Source: Sulfobacillus thermosulfidooxidans DSM 9293 (lineage in GTDB: Bacteria > Bacillota > Sulfobacillia > Sulfobacillales > Sulfobacillaceae). Taken from it: 64,000 nucleotides of DNA. The notes below the pieces were generated by a model. That model did not search any database and was not told the origin of the DNA. It worked only from the letters and a program-made list of their open reading frames with translations. Shown piece by piece: positions 3,658 through 17,041 of this stretch (positions are counted from its first letter, which is position 1; every line of letters begins with the position of its first letter). The translations under genes and the position numbers were made by a program. Location of the stretch: contig NZ_FWWY01000001.1 in NCBI RefSeq assembly GCF_900176145.1, positions 3,267,011 to 3,331,010 of the forward strand, in the 5' to 3' direction.

Positions 3658-4002
3658 TTAAAAACTGAGAATTGCATATCCTTCCCGAGCCCAACGGGAA
3701 AAGGTTTGATTGGCCATGAGCAATGCGATATCCAGCGCCCGAGCCGCATCTTCCACCTGGTACGATTTCACGAGGTTCGTACATGCCTCTAAGAGAATCC
3801 CCCTCTGCCGCAGCTCCTGCATCATCTGACGGACATCATCAGGAGCCGAAGCTAAAAGGGCTGTTGATTCTGCAAAGAAAAAGACTTCTAGATTGTCCGG
3901 ACGTTCGGCTTCTGGCAATTCTGCAGTATGTAGAGCGAGAGACAAGGCCACCCGAACACGCTGGGGAGTATCCGATGCAATCATAATGCCTAATTTTCCC
4001 AT
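3658..4002 (-). CDS. DsrE-family protein
   Basis: A 114-residue cytoplasmic protein of the DsrE/DsrF-like fold. It opens with GKLGIMIASDTPQRVRVAL and contains the family's VFFFAESTALL strand-helix and the RGILLEACTNLVKSY segment, whose Cys is the position used for sulfane-sulfur transfer in related proteins. The start is ATG 4002 behind AAGGAGAGAGG; an upstream TTG at 4026 is less likely. It is the last gene of a three-gene minus-strand operon with an MFS carrier and a persulfide-dioxygenase-like hydrolase. The setting suggests sulfur relay or detoxification, by inference. Confidence 0.75.
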   Translation of the reverse strand: MGKLGIMIASDTPQRVRVALSLALHTAELPEAERPDNLEVFFFAESTALLASAPDDVRQMMQELRQRGILLEACTNLVKSYQVEDAARALDIALLMANQTFSRWAREGYAILSF

Positions 4003-10514: not shown

Positions 10515-10540
10515 TGTAACCTTTTCATAGCATTGGACGT
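10515..10540 (+). promoter_or_regulatory. Candidate ECF-type autoregulatory promoter
   Basis: TGTAAC (10515-10520) followed after 17 bases by CGT (10538-10540) resembles the TGAAAC-N16-CGT promoters of ECF sigma factors. It lies directly upstream of the ECF sigma gene, as expected for autoregulation. Confidence 0.45.
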
Positions 10541-10573
10541 TATACTTGGTGAAAGCAGATTGTCTTAAAGGGG

Positions 10574-11098
10574 TTGCCTTCAACGAACGCGCAAGATGAA
10601 CGGCATTTTACGCAATTTATGGAGGAATATGGGGACAAGGCATTACGTTATGCTTTCGTCACCTTACATGTTCGCGATGACGCAGAGGATGTGGCTCAAG
10701 AAGCGTTTGTTCGTTTATGGCGCCACGCCAAGCGCCATGGAGTCGATAATTTGAGCCCAGCTCTACTCTTTCATACGTTGACAAACTTATGTCGTGACCG
10801 CATGCGATATTACAAACGGCATCCAGAAGACCCGACAGATATTTTGGAGACGACCCAGCAATCCGCAATGGACGAGATTCCTTTATTAATGGATGATATG
10901 AATGTGCTTGAAGCGGTTATGCAATTAGGTGTGGCAGAACGCCAATGTATTCTTCTGTTTTACTATATGGATCGCTCTTTAAAGGAGACGGCTACAGCGC
11001 TTGGCGTTAGTGAGCAAGTTGTTAAGACGCGGTTATACCGCGCCCGGCAGCATCTACGTCCCCTTCTTGAACCTATCTGGAAGGAGGGCCTAATATGA
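10574..11098 (+). CDS. ECF RNA polymerase sigma factor
   Basis: A group 4 sigma factor of about 174 aa. Region 2 spans the first ~80 residues (RDDAEDVAQEAFVRLWRHA is the core-binding and -10-recognising block). Region 4 covers about residues 110-165, ending in the helix-turn-helix SLKETATALGVSEQVVKTRLYRARQHL that reads the -35 element. No zinc or extra C-terminal domain is present. The TTG start at 10574 touches an AAAGGGG, so the true start may be a little downstream. The stop overlaps the ATG of the next gene by 4 bases, the usual sign of a sigma/anti-sigma pair. Confidence 0.88.
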   Translation: MPSTNAQDERHFTQFMEEYGDKALRYAFVTLHVRDDAEDVAQEAFVRLWRHAKRHGVDNLSPALLFHTLTNLCRDRMRYYKRHPEDPTDILETTQQSAMDEIPLLMDDMNVLEAVMQLGVAERQCILLFYYMDRSLKETATALGVSEQVVKTRLYRARQHLRPLLEPIWKEGLI

Positions 11099-12576
11099 CC
11101 GATCATTTGCACGACAAGTTAGGGGAACGTTTAGATCATGCTCTCGGCGAAGGCATGGGATTGTATTTTAATACGCATTGGCATCCTAAAAAGGTCGTAC
11201 GTCGCCAAAGCTATCTCCGCCGTACGGTCATGGGCGCGGTAGCCGCGTCGGTCGCCGGATTAGTGCTTGTGCCTCACCTACACCCGATCCGTCAAAGTCA
11301 GGCATCCAGCAGTGAAAGGACTCTCGCAGCTCCGGCTTTATCCTCGTCGATTAAGCAAGTGCTGCAGCAATTTTCCGATGAACAGGTTCAGGTTATCGAT
11401 ATGTCACCGGTCTATGCCAAATATCCTATGGCAGTTCCGACAGGTCATGCTTTAACATTATCCGGTAAATTTACCCTGGGCCAGATCACAGGAACTTCCC
11501 TGGTATTAAAATTGGATAATCGGCGCAATGTTCTGGGAGGCACATTATTTTCTCAAGGCGTTCCTATCTATGACTTTGTTGGCCATGATGCAACCAATGG
11601 GCAAGTGATCAGTCCCCATCCCAGTTCCACCCCATTAAAAGGAACATGGGTTGCCGGATTACCAACACCGATTACATCATTTGCGGCAGCTGGTCCTTAT
11701 ATTTATTTGACGCACAATAATACGTGGGCGGTATTACACGGCCAAAGCAAAGCATACTGGGCGGTATCTCCGGGTCCTGAGACTAATAATATGATTGATA
11801 CAATTTCGGCGCTGCCGAACAAGCCTAATGACGTTTTATTAGTCGAGGAAAATCCTTCAGGTCAATCAGTAGGATATGTGAGTACCGACCGCGGACGGCA
11901 TTGGACAACATGGGCCATCGGCGCCGCGACCTTTTCCAATGTTGTGGCAATGGACCATCACTATTGGGCTATCGTCAATGGGACGTTGCAAGTCAGTCAA
12001 ACTGGGATCACCTGGAACACTTTGCTTACATTGAATACGAAACGGTGGCAGGTTGAAGATTACGCGATCAATCCGGCCAACTCCCAACAAATTGCCGTGG
12101 CCTTGGTTCCCGTAGCGGGAACTGGAATTGGCCCCGTATTAGAAACGCAAAATGGCGGACAAAGCTGGCACCAACTTCCTCATTTTCCTGCGTTAGGAGC
12201 TGCACCGTCTAGCATGGTCATGTCCCCTAGCGGCGGAATTTCCGCACTCGTCAACCTCTCCAATCCTGTCCTGGTCAGATACTCTCCTACCACCCACCGG
12301 TGGACGGCAATTGCCGTGCCTAGTAATGGGCAGCAAGTGGGAGTTGGACAATTAGCCGCTTCGCCCAATGGGGACTTATTTTATGGTTCGCCTACAGGAG
12401 CTATCTATCGCTGGGTAAAATCTGATTCTCAATGGCAGTACATTGCGCCTCCATCGGCTAGCGCGGCTGATTCGTCAGCACCCTACCCTTTAGAAGCCAT
12501 TGGCAACCATCAAATTCTTGCCGGCTACGATAATGGATGGTCAATCTTTGTTATTTCGCCATCATCCTCACGGTAA
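11095..12576 (+). CDS. Membrane-anchored beta-propeller protein, probable anti-sigma/sensor
   Basis: A 493-residue protein with a short basic cytoplasmic N-terminus (about 45 aa), one membrane helix near residues 46-62 (VMGAVAASVAGLVLVPHL) and a large extracytoplasmic domain. That domain contains BNR/sialidase-like repeats, for example STDRGRHWTTW and TQNGGQSWHQL, consistent with a beta-propeller. It is translationally coupled to the ECF sigma gene, so a role in sequestering and releasing that sigma is the natural inference. The cytoplasmic part lacks the HxxxCxxC zinc motif of ZAS anti-sigma domains and is unusually short. GGAGGG precedes the ATG. Confidence 0.7.
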   Translation: MTDHLHDKLGERLDHALGEGMGLYFNTHWHPKKVVRRQSYLRRTVMGAVAASVAGLVLVPHLHPIRQSQASSSERTLAAPALSSSIKQVLQQFSDEQVQVIDMSPVYAKYPMAVPTGHALTLSGKFTLGQITGTSLVLKLDNRRNVLGGTLFSQGVPIYDFVGHDATNGQVISPHPSSTPLKGTWVAGLPTPITSFAAAGPYIYLTHNNTWAVLHGQSKAYWAVSPGPETNNMIDTISALPNKPNDVLLVEENPSGQSVGYVSTDRGRHWTTWAIGAATFSNVVAMDHHYWAIVNGTLQVSQTGITWNTLLTLNTKRWQVEDYAINPANSQQIAVALVPVAGTGIGPVLETQNGGQSWHQLPHFPALGAAPSSMVMSPSGGISALVNLSNPVLVRYSPTTHRWTAIAVPSNGQQVGVGQLAASPNGDLFYGSPTGAIYRWVKSDSQWQYIAPPSASAADSSAPYPLEAIGNHQILAGYDNGWSIFVISPSSSR

Positions 12577-14067: not shown

Positions 14068-15321
14068 TTACGCGGCGGTCGACACCTCCCCCAGGGGGAA
14101 CAGTCGCGCCGCATCATACGCCTGTCCGTGCTTCATGCACGCCCAGGCCACCCGGAGGAGCTTCGTCGCGACCGCCACCATGGCGGCTTTCGGGGCGAGC
14201 GGATGCGCCGCCCGTCGGGTGAGCGACTGATACCAGGCCTTCCACTGGGGATCCTTGGCCACCGCGACGCACGCGGCCTGATACAGCACGGCACGCGCGG
14301 CGGGACGTCCCCGTTTGGCAATATGCGTTGGGCCTTGGCGGTGTCCCGAGCTGGTTTGGGTGAGATTGAGTCCCGCCATTTTCTGCGCTTGGCGCGCATC
14401 GGCGAATCGGGACAAGTCCCCCAACTCGCCCAACACCGTGGCAATGACCTGGGGCCCGAATCCCGGAATGCTGAATAACGGCTGAGCAGGAGTCCAGTCC
14501 TCTAAAATGGCGGCTTGCGCGGCTTCAATGGCCGTTTGCGCGGCGAGCGCCGCGCGCCAACTCCGAAGATAGGAGGCGAGTTGGAGACGCGCAGTCGCCC
14601 GGCCTACGGGAATCCCAATGGAGTCCACGGCGGCCTGGTGCAAGGCGTGGGCGCGTTTAGCGCCGACGCGATGTGTGGTGGCGGCCTTAAACTGGTCCGC
14701 TATCGCATCCACGGACTGCGCTAACACCAAGTCCGGCGTCGGGAGCGTATCCAGCGTCGTCAGCGCCGCTTTCCCATCCCACGCCTTGAAGACCGTGAAG
14801 AATTCCGGAAAGTATTGATGGATCCAGCCGGCAATGCGCGCTCGCCATCGCATGACGTCCTGGTGGTGCTGCCGACGCGTCACCGCCAACGTGGCCAGCT
14901 GGGCCAGCGCGCCGCCGCGCGGCTCCCACCGGAACCACCGGCCATCATAGACGAGTCGGGCGATAACCCGGGCATCCTTGGCGTCGGTCTTGGTCGGGGT
15001 ATTGTCATCCAATTCCTTGAGTCGATGGACGTGAGCCGGCTGCACCAGCACCACCTCCGCGCCGTGCGCACGGAGCCAATGGGCCAACCCAACCCAATAG
15101 TGCCCGGTGGACTCCATGCCAACGCGGACCTCCTCGGACGGCCGCCGCTCCCACATCGCCTCAAATCCCGCACGGGTATTGGCGAACCGAAAGGCTTTAC
15201 CGACAGGCCGCCCGTTCGTGTCCAGCCATTGCACATAATGCCAGTCCTTCGCCACGTCGATGCCGCCCACCCCCAGTCCTTGCTTTCTTCCGTCGCTCTG
15301 CTCTACACTGTGCTTAGCCAT
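14068..15321 (-). CDS. IS110-family transposase/recombinase 1
   Basis: A 417-residue DEDD-type recombinase. The RuvC-like N-terminal domain starts with GGIDVAKDWHYVQW (first catalytic Asp), then GMESTGHYW (Glu) and PTKTDAKDARVIARL (Asp pair). The C-terminal Transposase_20 domain has the helix-hairpin FSIPGFGPQVIATVLGELGD and the serine-bearing NLTQTSSGHRQG block thought to form the covalent DNA link. The start is ATG 15321 behind AGGGGGG. The sequence is more GC-rich than neighbouring host genes. It shares only family-level similarity with the recombinase at 15806-17041, so the two elements arrived separately. Intact. Confidence 0.92.
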   Translation of the reverse strand: MAKHSVEQSDGRKQGLGVGGIDVAKDWHYVQWLDTNGRPVGKAFRFANTRAGFEAMWERRPSEEVRVGMESTGHYWVGLAHWLRAHGAEVVLVQPAHVHRLKELDDNTPTKTDAKDARVIARLVYDGRWFRWEPRGGALAQLATLAVTRRQHHQDVMRWRARIAGWIHQYFPEFFTVFKAWDGKAALTTLDTLPTPDLVLAQSVDAIADQFKAATTHRVGAKRAHALHQAAVDSIGIPVGRATARLQLASYLRSWRAALAAQTAIEAAQAAILEDWTPAQPLFSIPGFGPQVIATVLGELGDLSRFADARQAQKMAGLNLTQTSSGHRQGPTHIAKRGRPAARAVLYQAACVAVAKDPQWKAWYQSLTRRAAHPLAPKAAMVAVATKLLRVAWACMKHGQAYDAARLFPLGEVSTAA

Positions 15322-15805: not shown

Positions 15806-17041
15806 ATGGATAGCGTGTTGTACGTCGGTATTGACACCAGTCTCGGGGCTCACGTCGTCTGCGCGATGGCGGCGGATGGCCAGGTCGTCGCGCGGACGAC
15901 CGTCCCCAACGATCAGGCGGGGGCCGAGCAATTCGTCGCCTGGCTGCACCCCCACGCCGCGCCGTACGCGCGGCTGGCCATTGGCGTCGAGGCCACGTCC
16001 GTGTACCATGTGCCGCTGATGGAATGGCTGACGCAAACCCCCGACTTGCAGCGGTGGCAACCCACCTGGTACGTCCTCAATCCGAAAGTCGTCCAGAAAT
16101 TCCGAGAGACCTATGTGGATCGGGGCAAAACCGACCGAGCGGATGCCGCCCTGATTGCGGATGTCATGCGGTTTGGGCGCGTCACGCCCTGGACCCCGCC
16201 GGATCCGCGCTATGCGGCGTTGCAGGTCTTGACCCGCCATCGTCGGCAGCTGAGCCACCTCATCACCCAAGAAAAAAATCGCGCGTTGGTGCAATTGTTT
16301 TGTGTCTGGGGGCAGTATGCCCATACGGAGGAGCCGTTTTTCTCGAACGTCTTTGGGGTAGCGTCGCAAACCGTGTTGGAACGCTACACGCCCGATACGC
16401 TGGCAGCCATCCCGCTGGCGGATCTGGTGGCGGAAATCGCGGCGGCCGGTCGCCAACGGCTGAAAGCGCCCGATGACATTGCGCAGACCTTGCACCGCTT
16501 GGCGCGGCGCGCCTTTCGGTTGCATCCGGACGAGCAGGACGCGCGGCACCAAAGCTTGGTCCTGCATTTGGACACCATCCGGGCCTTGGAACATCAACAA
16601 CAGGCGCTGGACAAAGTGATTGCCCGTGACATGCAGGCGTTTCGCCAAACCCTGACCACGATTCCGGGGATTGGTCCGGTCTATGGCGCGGGCCTCTTGG
16701 CCGAAATCGGTCCCATCGAACGATTTCCGTCGGAAAATGCCTTGGCCAAATATGCGGGGCTGACCTGGCGCCCGCATCAATCGGGGAATTTTGATGCCGA
16801 CATCCGTCCGCTGACGCGGACGGGGAACGTCTATTTGCGGTACTACTTCATCGAAGCGGCGGAGAGGGTCCGGGTGCGGGACCCGCAGTTCAAAGCCTTT
16901 TACGAGAAGAAGTACCACGAAGCCACGCACCACGCGCATAAGCGGGCGTTGGTCTTGACGGCACGCCAGTGGGTCGGCGTGGTCTACGGGATGCTGACCC
17001 GGGGCCAAATCTACGACGAAAGGAAGTTGATGCCGCACTAA
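15806..17041 (+). CDS. IS110-family transposase/recombinase 2
   Basis: A 411-residue DEDD recombinase. The N-terminal RuvC-like domain shows YVGIDTSLGAHVV (Asp), IGVEATSVYHV (Glu) and RGKTDRADAALIADV (Asp pair). The C-terminal Transposase_20 domain carries TIPGIGPVYGAGLLAEIGP and the LTWRPHQSGNF block with the conserved Ser. GGGAGG precedes ATG 15806. Intact and GC-rich. A 458-codon open frame on the opposite strand is an artefact of its base composition. It is only distantly similar to the neighbouring IS recombinase at 14068-15321. Confidence 0.92.
   Translation: MDSVLYVGIDTSLGAHVVCAMAADGQVVARTTVPNDQAGAEQFVAWLHPHAAPYARLAIGVEATSVYHVPLMEWLTQTPDLQRWQPTWYVLNPKVVQKFRETYVDRGKTDRADAALIADVMRFGRVTPWTPPDPRYAALQVLTRHRRQLSHLITQEKNRALVQLFCVWGQYAHTEEPFFSNVFGVASQTVLERYTPDTLAAIPLADLVAEIAAAGRQRLKAPDDIAQTLHRLARRAFRLHPDEQDARHQSLVLHLDTIRALEHQQQALDKVIARDMQAFRQTLTTIPGIGPVYGAGLLAEIGPIERFPSENALAKYAGLTWRPHQSGNFDADIRPLTRTGNVYLRYYFIEAAERVRVRDPQFKAFYEKKYHEATHHAHKRALVLTARQWVGVVYGMLTRGQIYDERKLMPH

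Follow-up and report, generated by a model that had tools for sequence, protein, structure and literature searches.

The window analysed here, a stretch of 64,000 nucleotides of Sulfobacillus thermosulfidooxidans DSM 9293 (contig NZ_FWWY01000001.1, positions 3,267,011 to 3,331,010), carries on its forward strand a gene for an ECF sigma factor followed directly by a second gene, whose product is a membrane protein bearing a propeller-like outer domain. The features of this two-gene unit are collected in Table 1.

Table 1. Features of the sigma factor operon, in window coordinates
Feature	Position	Strand	Basis or remark
Putative autoregulatory ECF promoter	10515..10542	+	TGTAACC (-35, 10515-10521), N16, CGTTA (-10, 10538-10542)
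Shine-Dalgarno AAAGGGG of the sigma gene	10567..10573	+	sequence; AAAGGGG/AAGGAG-like in orthologs
Probable sigma start codon ACG	10583..10585	+	codon conservation, spacing
ECF sigma factor gene	10583..11098 (10574-11098 with TTG)	+	Pfam, NCBIfam
Partner gene, encoding the proposed membrane-bound anti-sigma factor and its outer propeller	11095..12576	+	493 aa; order-wide ortholog
Predicted cytoplasmic tail, residues 1-43	11095..11223	+	alignment A2, AlphaFold2 model
Predicted single membrane helix, about residues 44-62	11224..11280	+	hydropathy
Small beta region outside the membrane, preceding the propeller, residues 99-162	11389..11580	+	five strands in the model
YCF48/BNR-like beta-propeller, residues 180-491	11632..12567	+	Foldseek, VIA-align, Ycf48 profile match

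The ORF caller placed the upstream gene at 10574-11098 (+) and read 174 amino acids from a TTG start. The product matches Sigma70_r4_2 (1.1e-12) and Sigma70_r2 (1.5e-8) in Pfam and scores 70.3 bits against a cut-off of 42.9 with the sigma70-ECF superfamily profile of NCBIfam; having regions 2 and 4 only, it is a sigma factor of the ECF type. The solved sequences nearest to it are SigL, SigW and SigE, with CnrH at 1.4e-8, and the group of 39 orthologs to which it belongs is well separated from the next ECF factors, E-values jumping from 1e-52 to 5e-23 between the two. The ECF-like promoter that the first-pass annotation had read ahead of the pair is borne out, with TGTAAC (10515-10520) and CGT (10538-10540) lying 17 nucleotides apart. 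Its strict form, GTAACC-N16-CGTT, is found 5′ of the sigma gene in 34 of 39 orthologous loci and in none of 19,500 shuffled regions, and the relaxed form GTAAC-N16..18-CGT in 36 of the 39. That the promoter is autoregulatory is supported by its position and its conservation.

The partner gene shares the four bases ATGA with the end of the sigma gene, an overlap that recurs in 31 of 39 loci. It had been described in the first-pass annotation as encoding about 45 cytoplasmic residues without a ZAS domain, then a membrane helix and a BNR-type propeller outside, and each part of this description holds. The membrane stretch begins at about residue 43 (ortholog median 44); the HxxxCxxC signature occurs in 0 of 39 partner orthologs, which sets the protein apart from class I (ZAS) anti-sigma factors, and no cysteine precedes the membrane helix in 38 ortholog rows, nor in L018 (alignment A2). 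In the AlphaFold2 model, whose mean pLDDT is 81.4, the tail contains two helices (residues 8-21 and 31-49) at low pLDDT (about 46-61), the former followed by F-x-x-x-W-x-P. The full N-terminal motif, G-x-x-x-D ... F-x-x-x-W-x-P, is kept even in family f2, where whole-protein identity falls to about 30%, and its residues D14 and P31 are invariant in 35 of 35 rows of an alignment that takes in 35 of the 40 partner loci (L013, L032, L033, L035 and L036 were omitted for contig or stretch ends or an unclear start). Beyond the membrane, a PVYxxYP motif is conserved in the beta region before the propeller.

For the outer domain, Foldseek with the partner model returned YCF48 on top (E 1.5e-11, TM 0.71 on the target), Ycf48 was also reached at 9.6e-5 when PDB sequences were searched by profile, and VIA-align delimited a propeller at about residues 180-491 with Z of about 21-23, a score tied among many unrelated propellers. 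Seven blades can be counted from the strand list of the model, and blade number and profile similarity together place the domain with YCF48/BNR propellers. Matches to sequence families are weak: Pfam gave weak hits to BNR and DUF6242, the BNR match below its cut-off; NCBIfam gave an F510_1955 glycosylhydrolase match at 3.5e-5, also below cut-off; and neither collection gave a TolB or PD40 match at E 1. The partner thus shares its fold, and a weak profile match, with YCF48/Hcf136-type propellers and differs from them in carrying a membrane helix and a cytoplasmic tail on the same chain; to our knowledge there is no ground for expecting a photosystem function of it.

The partner was present in 40 of 61 genomes searched, namely 40 of the 42 genomes of the same order and none of the 19 from elsewhere in the class; the two order genomes in which it was not found are 61% and 71% complete. 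Of 398 genomes searched across the phylum, three had it, each of them from the same family, and a scan of viral contigs yielded no relative. Homologues without an adjacent sigma gene, named in the first-pass annotation as a finding that would speak against the pairing, were looked for and not found: the sigma gene immediately precedes the partner in 39 of 39 testable loci from three families, the fortieth partner (L013) having been left out of this count as it starts 20 bases from a contig end. In a second collection the two genes are neighbours in 24 of 26 loci, and the other two are cut at contig ends. The next gene after the pair encodes a thiolase on the opposite strand and is retained in 20 of these 26 loci, so that synteny accounts for part of the adjacency of sigma and partner; the 4-base overlap is the more specific evidence of pairing. 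Beyond these two, the operon has no conserved gene. Sigma factor and partner are, by sequence, an orthologous unit of the taxonomic order to which the window belongs, and the partner is likely to be an anti-sigma factor because it is inseparable from the sigma gene in all 39 testable loci and carries a tail motif kept across the order, and because the search gave no homologue standing without a sigma gene.

Two described systems bear directly on this reading. In Thermoanaerobacter tengcongensis, the N-terminal part of Tt-TolB, with a membrane helix at residues 39-61, binds the ECF factor Tt-RpoE1, and the presence of Tt-TolB inhibits transcription, a role demonstrated by two-hybrid assay and in vitro transcription (PMC3397946). 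Like the partner gene in the window, the anti-sigma gene lies directly downstream of the ECF gene, and the autoregulated promoter of Tt-RpoE1, tGTTAC-N16-CGTC, is close to TGTAACC-N16-CGTTA (PMC3397946). The two proteins also share a short cytoplasmic N-terminus, one membrane helix in nearly the same place (39-61 against about 44-62) and a large outer domain, which is however a TolB domain in Tt-TolB and YCF48/BNR-like in the partner; binding and inhibition were shown for Tt-TolB, whereas the role of the partner is predicted from sequence. The other precedent is the class II anti-sigma domain of CnrY, in which two helices wrap around sigma2 and sigma4 without a ZAS (PMC4598750, PMC7406223). 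The partner resembles CnrY (with CnrH) and NepR in its short cytoplasmic domain, which lacks a zinc motif and would likewise form two helices (PMC4598750, PMC7406223, PMC8103513), although these helices are predicted at low confidence and sequence similarity is not detectable, and whereas CnrY works with a separate sensor, CnrX, the sensor would here be fused to the tail. By analogy, the two-helix domain of CnrY is likely to be the structural counterpart of the tail. Class I domains, by contrast, have four helices and average about 100 residues (those below 50 were excluded in the survey described; PMC7406223), whereas the partner has two predicted helices and a cytoplasmic stretch of about 43 residues, which does not place it with zinc-less class I factors either.

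Sequence searches with the tail returned little. A profile search of solved structures gave chance-level matches (best E 0.078, to a DNA repair protein) and no match to CnrY, and a 28-member set searched against Pfam likewise gave chance-level matches only. The suggestion of the first-pass annotation that the partner represents an unrecognised anti-sigma class therefore survives in half: an anti-sigma role is likely from the pairing and the tail motif, while the claim to a new class gives way before the precedents of Tt-TolB and CnrY. The tail may form a family of its own, though no new principle.

The genome scan that the annotation had called for was carried out with GTAACC-N16-CGTTA, a pattern taken from the promoters conserved ahead of the sigma genes. 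Across eight Sulfobacillus genomes it matched 69 sites against 17 for the reversed pattern, seven of the 69 being the sigma promoter itself (the regulon tables cover all 69, together with all 28 sites of genome G013 and 22 additional loci of the family, L149-L170). An ORF of at least 150 aa starts 30-130 nt downstream of 53 of the 69 sites and of 3 of the 17 reversed-pattern controls; such an ORF has a hydrophobic N-terminus at 33 sites against 1 control and a lipobox at 27 against 0, and only 12 of the 69 sites, against 15 of the 17 controls, lie inside a long frame. At 4000 random window points the corresponding counts were 1119 for the ORF, 192 for the hydrophobic N-terminus and 24 for the lipobox. 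The consensus extends beyond the search pattern, with T after CGTTA in 47 of 61 sites and G before it in 40 of 61. A looser pattern, TGTAAC-N16..18-CGTTA, was discarded: it gave 6 sites in the window's own genome against 11 in the reversed control, with no excess.

The own genome has seven GTAACC-N16-CGTTA sites. Besides the sigma operon, their predicted targets comprise three lipoproteins, of which one is a BNR/sortilin-type propeller, the precursor of an L,D-transpeptidase, a protein of 53 residues and a secreted one of about 440 aa. The L,D-transpeptidase gene carries the site in all eight Sulfobacillus genomes, and its full-length version (L088) has YkuD and PG_binding_1 domains in Pfam; the corresponding frame in G004 (L065), unlike L088, has an in-frame stop near its N-terminus. 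The 53-residue protein is nearly identical in four genomes (L071, L085, L086, L087), each time with the same promoter ahead, and L071 has no Pfam match. The site did not prove to be a general feature of propeller genes: in the own genome, only 1 of 5 gene regions found by PF15902 has it in its exact form. Outside the genus, two genomes of g7 stand out for very large numbers of the site (G013 with 28 against 0 reversed, G021 with 42 against 2) and for expanded secreted-protein targets. Of the 28 sites in G013, 17 have an ORF of the kind described, with a hydrophobic N-terminus in 15, and the ten of these 17 ORFs that were scanned include PSII_BNR propellers, an S-layer domain, Acyl_transf_3 and DUF459 proteins. 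Among eight genomes of f2 and f3 an expansion is not evident, the sites numbering 10 to the control's 5 and including some that are the sigma promoter; several f1 genomes, such as G014 and G022, likewise show no excess. The analysis predicts a regulon of envelope genes, mostly lipoproteins and secreted proteins, and through it the proposed link of the switch to the wall or surface is supported indirectly.

A further element of the operon, which like the regulon is absent from the first-pass annotation, concerns how the sigma gene begins. The TTG chosen by the ORF finder (10574) abuts the Shine-Dalgarno sequence with a spacing of 0, and nine bases further on lies an ACG. In the alignment column that contains it, Thr is present in 24 of the 32 f1 and f3 sequences and is encoded by ACG in 24 of 24, whereas across 74 comparable columns of the sigma gene the next highest share of a single codon is 0.74 and the median 0.42; even the next Ala codon varies (GCG 10, GCA 8, GCT 4, GCC 1). 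The ACG stands 7-11 nt after the Shine-Dalgarno in 25 of the 32 f1 and f3 loci (L030 included); of the rest, three have CTG at 8-9 nt, two have GTG at 7 nt and two are unclear, and the seven f2 loci have GTG. An in-frame TGA separates the Shine-Dalgarno from the ACG in L014; in L023 an in-frame TAA comes first, and GTG takes the place of the ACG. The sigma gene therefore probably starts at ACG 10583 and not at TTG. A conserved codon other than ATG, GTG or TTG at a proper distance from the Shine-Dalgarno is the arrangement known from Streptomyces sigR, which has an IF3-repressed GTC start, an annotated GTG inside the Shine-Dalgarno and an ATGA overlap with rsrA (PMC5472188). The window pair has the ATGA overlap in common with sigR-rsrA and would also share the conserved non-canonical ECF start and the canonical codon misannotated at the Shine-Dalgarno. 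The parallel has its limits: the codon is GTC in one case and ACG in the other, Streptomyces belongs to another phylum, RsrA, in contrast to the partner with no zinc motif, is a redox-sensing anti-sigma factor of the zinc type (PMC5472188), and control by IF3 was tested in sigR whereas the ACG parallel is drawn from sequence.

Taken together, we favour, at a probability of roughly three in four, the view that Sulfobacillus and its order use the pair as an ECF sigma/anti-sigma switch that senses the envelope. In the resting state the tail of 43 residues would bind and hold the sigma factor, most likely with two helices clamping its two domains in the manner of CnrY, and the extracytoplasmic YCF48-like propeller would take up a signal at the cell surface. 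The tail would then release the sigma factor through stepwise proteolysis or a conformational change; candidates for PrsW-type (site-1) and M50/RasP-type (site-2) proteases are present in the genome. Free sigma factor is predicted to read GTAACC-N16-CGTTA promoters, namely those of its own operon and of lipoprotein, L,D-transpeptidase and secreted BNR propeller genes. The near-cognate ACG start, proposed from conservation, may keep the sigma factor scarce relative to its inhibitor, an effect suggested by the sigR precedent. Somewhat less firmly, though still with good confidence, we hold that the ACG start is kept across the family (with CTG or GTG similarly placed in a few members) and that Streptomyces sigR would thereby gain an independent counterpart, a second ECF sigma factor held scarce by a forbidden-looking start. 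In the present case it would serve an envelope switch that senses through a propeller and is predicted to control, among other outputs, secreted propellers with the fold of the sensor itself.

Several other explanations can be envisioned. The partner might be a membrane co-sensor or activator whose tail tethers the sigma factor or is needed for its activity, with inhibition exerted elsewhere; a tail that lacks sequence similarity to known anti-sigma domains and is modelled at low confidence would suit such a role, which we nonetheless consider improbable given that architecture, gene order and overlap match those of a proven anti-sigma factor, Tt-TolB, and that the operon offers no conserved third gene to supply the inhibitor, only a thiolase gene on the opposite strand. 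More improbable still is the proposal that the propeller gene is a mere co-transcribed target, one of many secreted propellers and without a regulatory role. Other predicted targets of the same promoter do include secreted BNR propellers, and hhalign ties the sensor to them with a probability of 93.8, a figure that comes from one local match of only 123 columns in a comparison with five target propellers. These targets, however, start with signal peptides or lipoboxes, whereas the conserved cytoplasmic motif with D14 and P31 belongs to the partner only, as does the coupling to sigma at every testable locus.

The reach of the regulon and the start of the sigma gene invite doubts of their own. 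The sites outside the operon could be served by other ECF factors, so that the sigma factor regulates only itself: the own genome has 19 Sigma70_r2 matches, surplus sites are few in f2 and f3, and some sites neighbour other ECF genes, as at L063, which lies behind a sigma/ZAS pair, and L079, ahead of an ECF gene, where another sigma could use the sites. We regard this as unlikely, since none of the other sigma genes inspected (G000 and G004) has GTAACC-N16-CGTT upstream of itself (L125 has a one-base-shorter variant near its start), and since G013 and G021 each have one ECF match to the query at 1e-10, yet 28 and 42 sites. Equally doubtful to us is a start at TTG 10574 or ATG 10619, with the invariant ACG an ordinary Thr codon or an element acting at the RNA level. 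The codon three before the ACG is TTG, GTG or ATG in many orthologs, and those of f2 have a usable GTG there; against this, the TTG leaves no spacing to the Shine-Dalgarno, the same codon is TGG in L006, L008, L012 and L031 and GAT in L022, L014 has its TGA after that codon, and L023, the only f1 row without Thr that has the same local layout, carries its GTG exactly where the others have ACG.

Literature searches joining anti-sigma factors, ECF sigma factors and beta-propellers listed no description of this system, nor did those with BNR, Ycf48 or sortilin among the first 15 of 364 matches, and in the library searched no work joining Sulfobacillus with ECF and anti-sigma was found. The switch proposed here offers a concrete predicted regulon and a testable two-part mechanism for the envelope of acidophilic Sulfobacillus. 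If the ACG start is real, weakness of the start codon may recur as a way of setting sigma:anti-sigma ratios, and annotated starts that fall on a Shine-Dalgarno sequence would be a cheap route to more cases.

Some smaller observations attach to the locus and its relatives. In four of four f2 loci of genus g12 (L037, L038, L039 and L040) the partner seemingly starts with CTG right after the sigma stop codon, which would be a second weak start within the operon. Genome G000 has a second ECF gene (L041, contig C1, about 1954657-1955121) followed by a 432-residue partner that likewise lacks a zinc motif and joins a single membrane helix to a short tail in the cytoplasm. In the window, two transposase-like ORFs lie 3′ of the thiolase gene, at 14068-15321 (-) and 15806-17041 (+), which we take from their appearance to be of the IS110 type.
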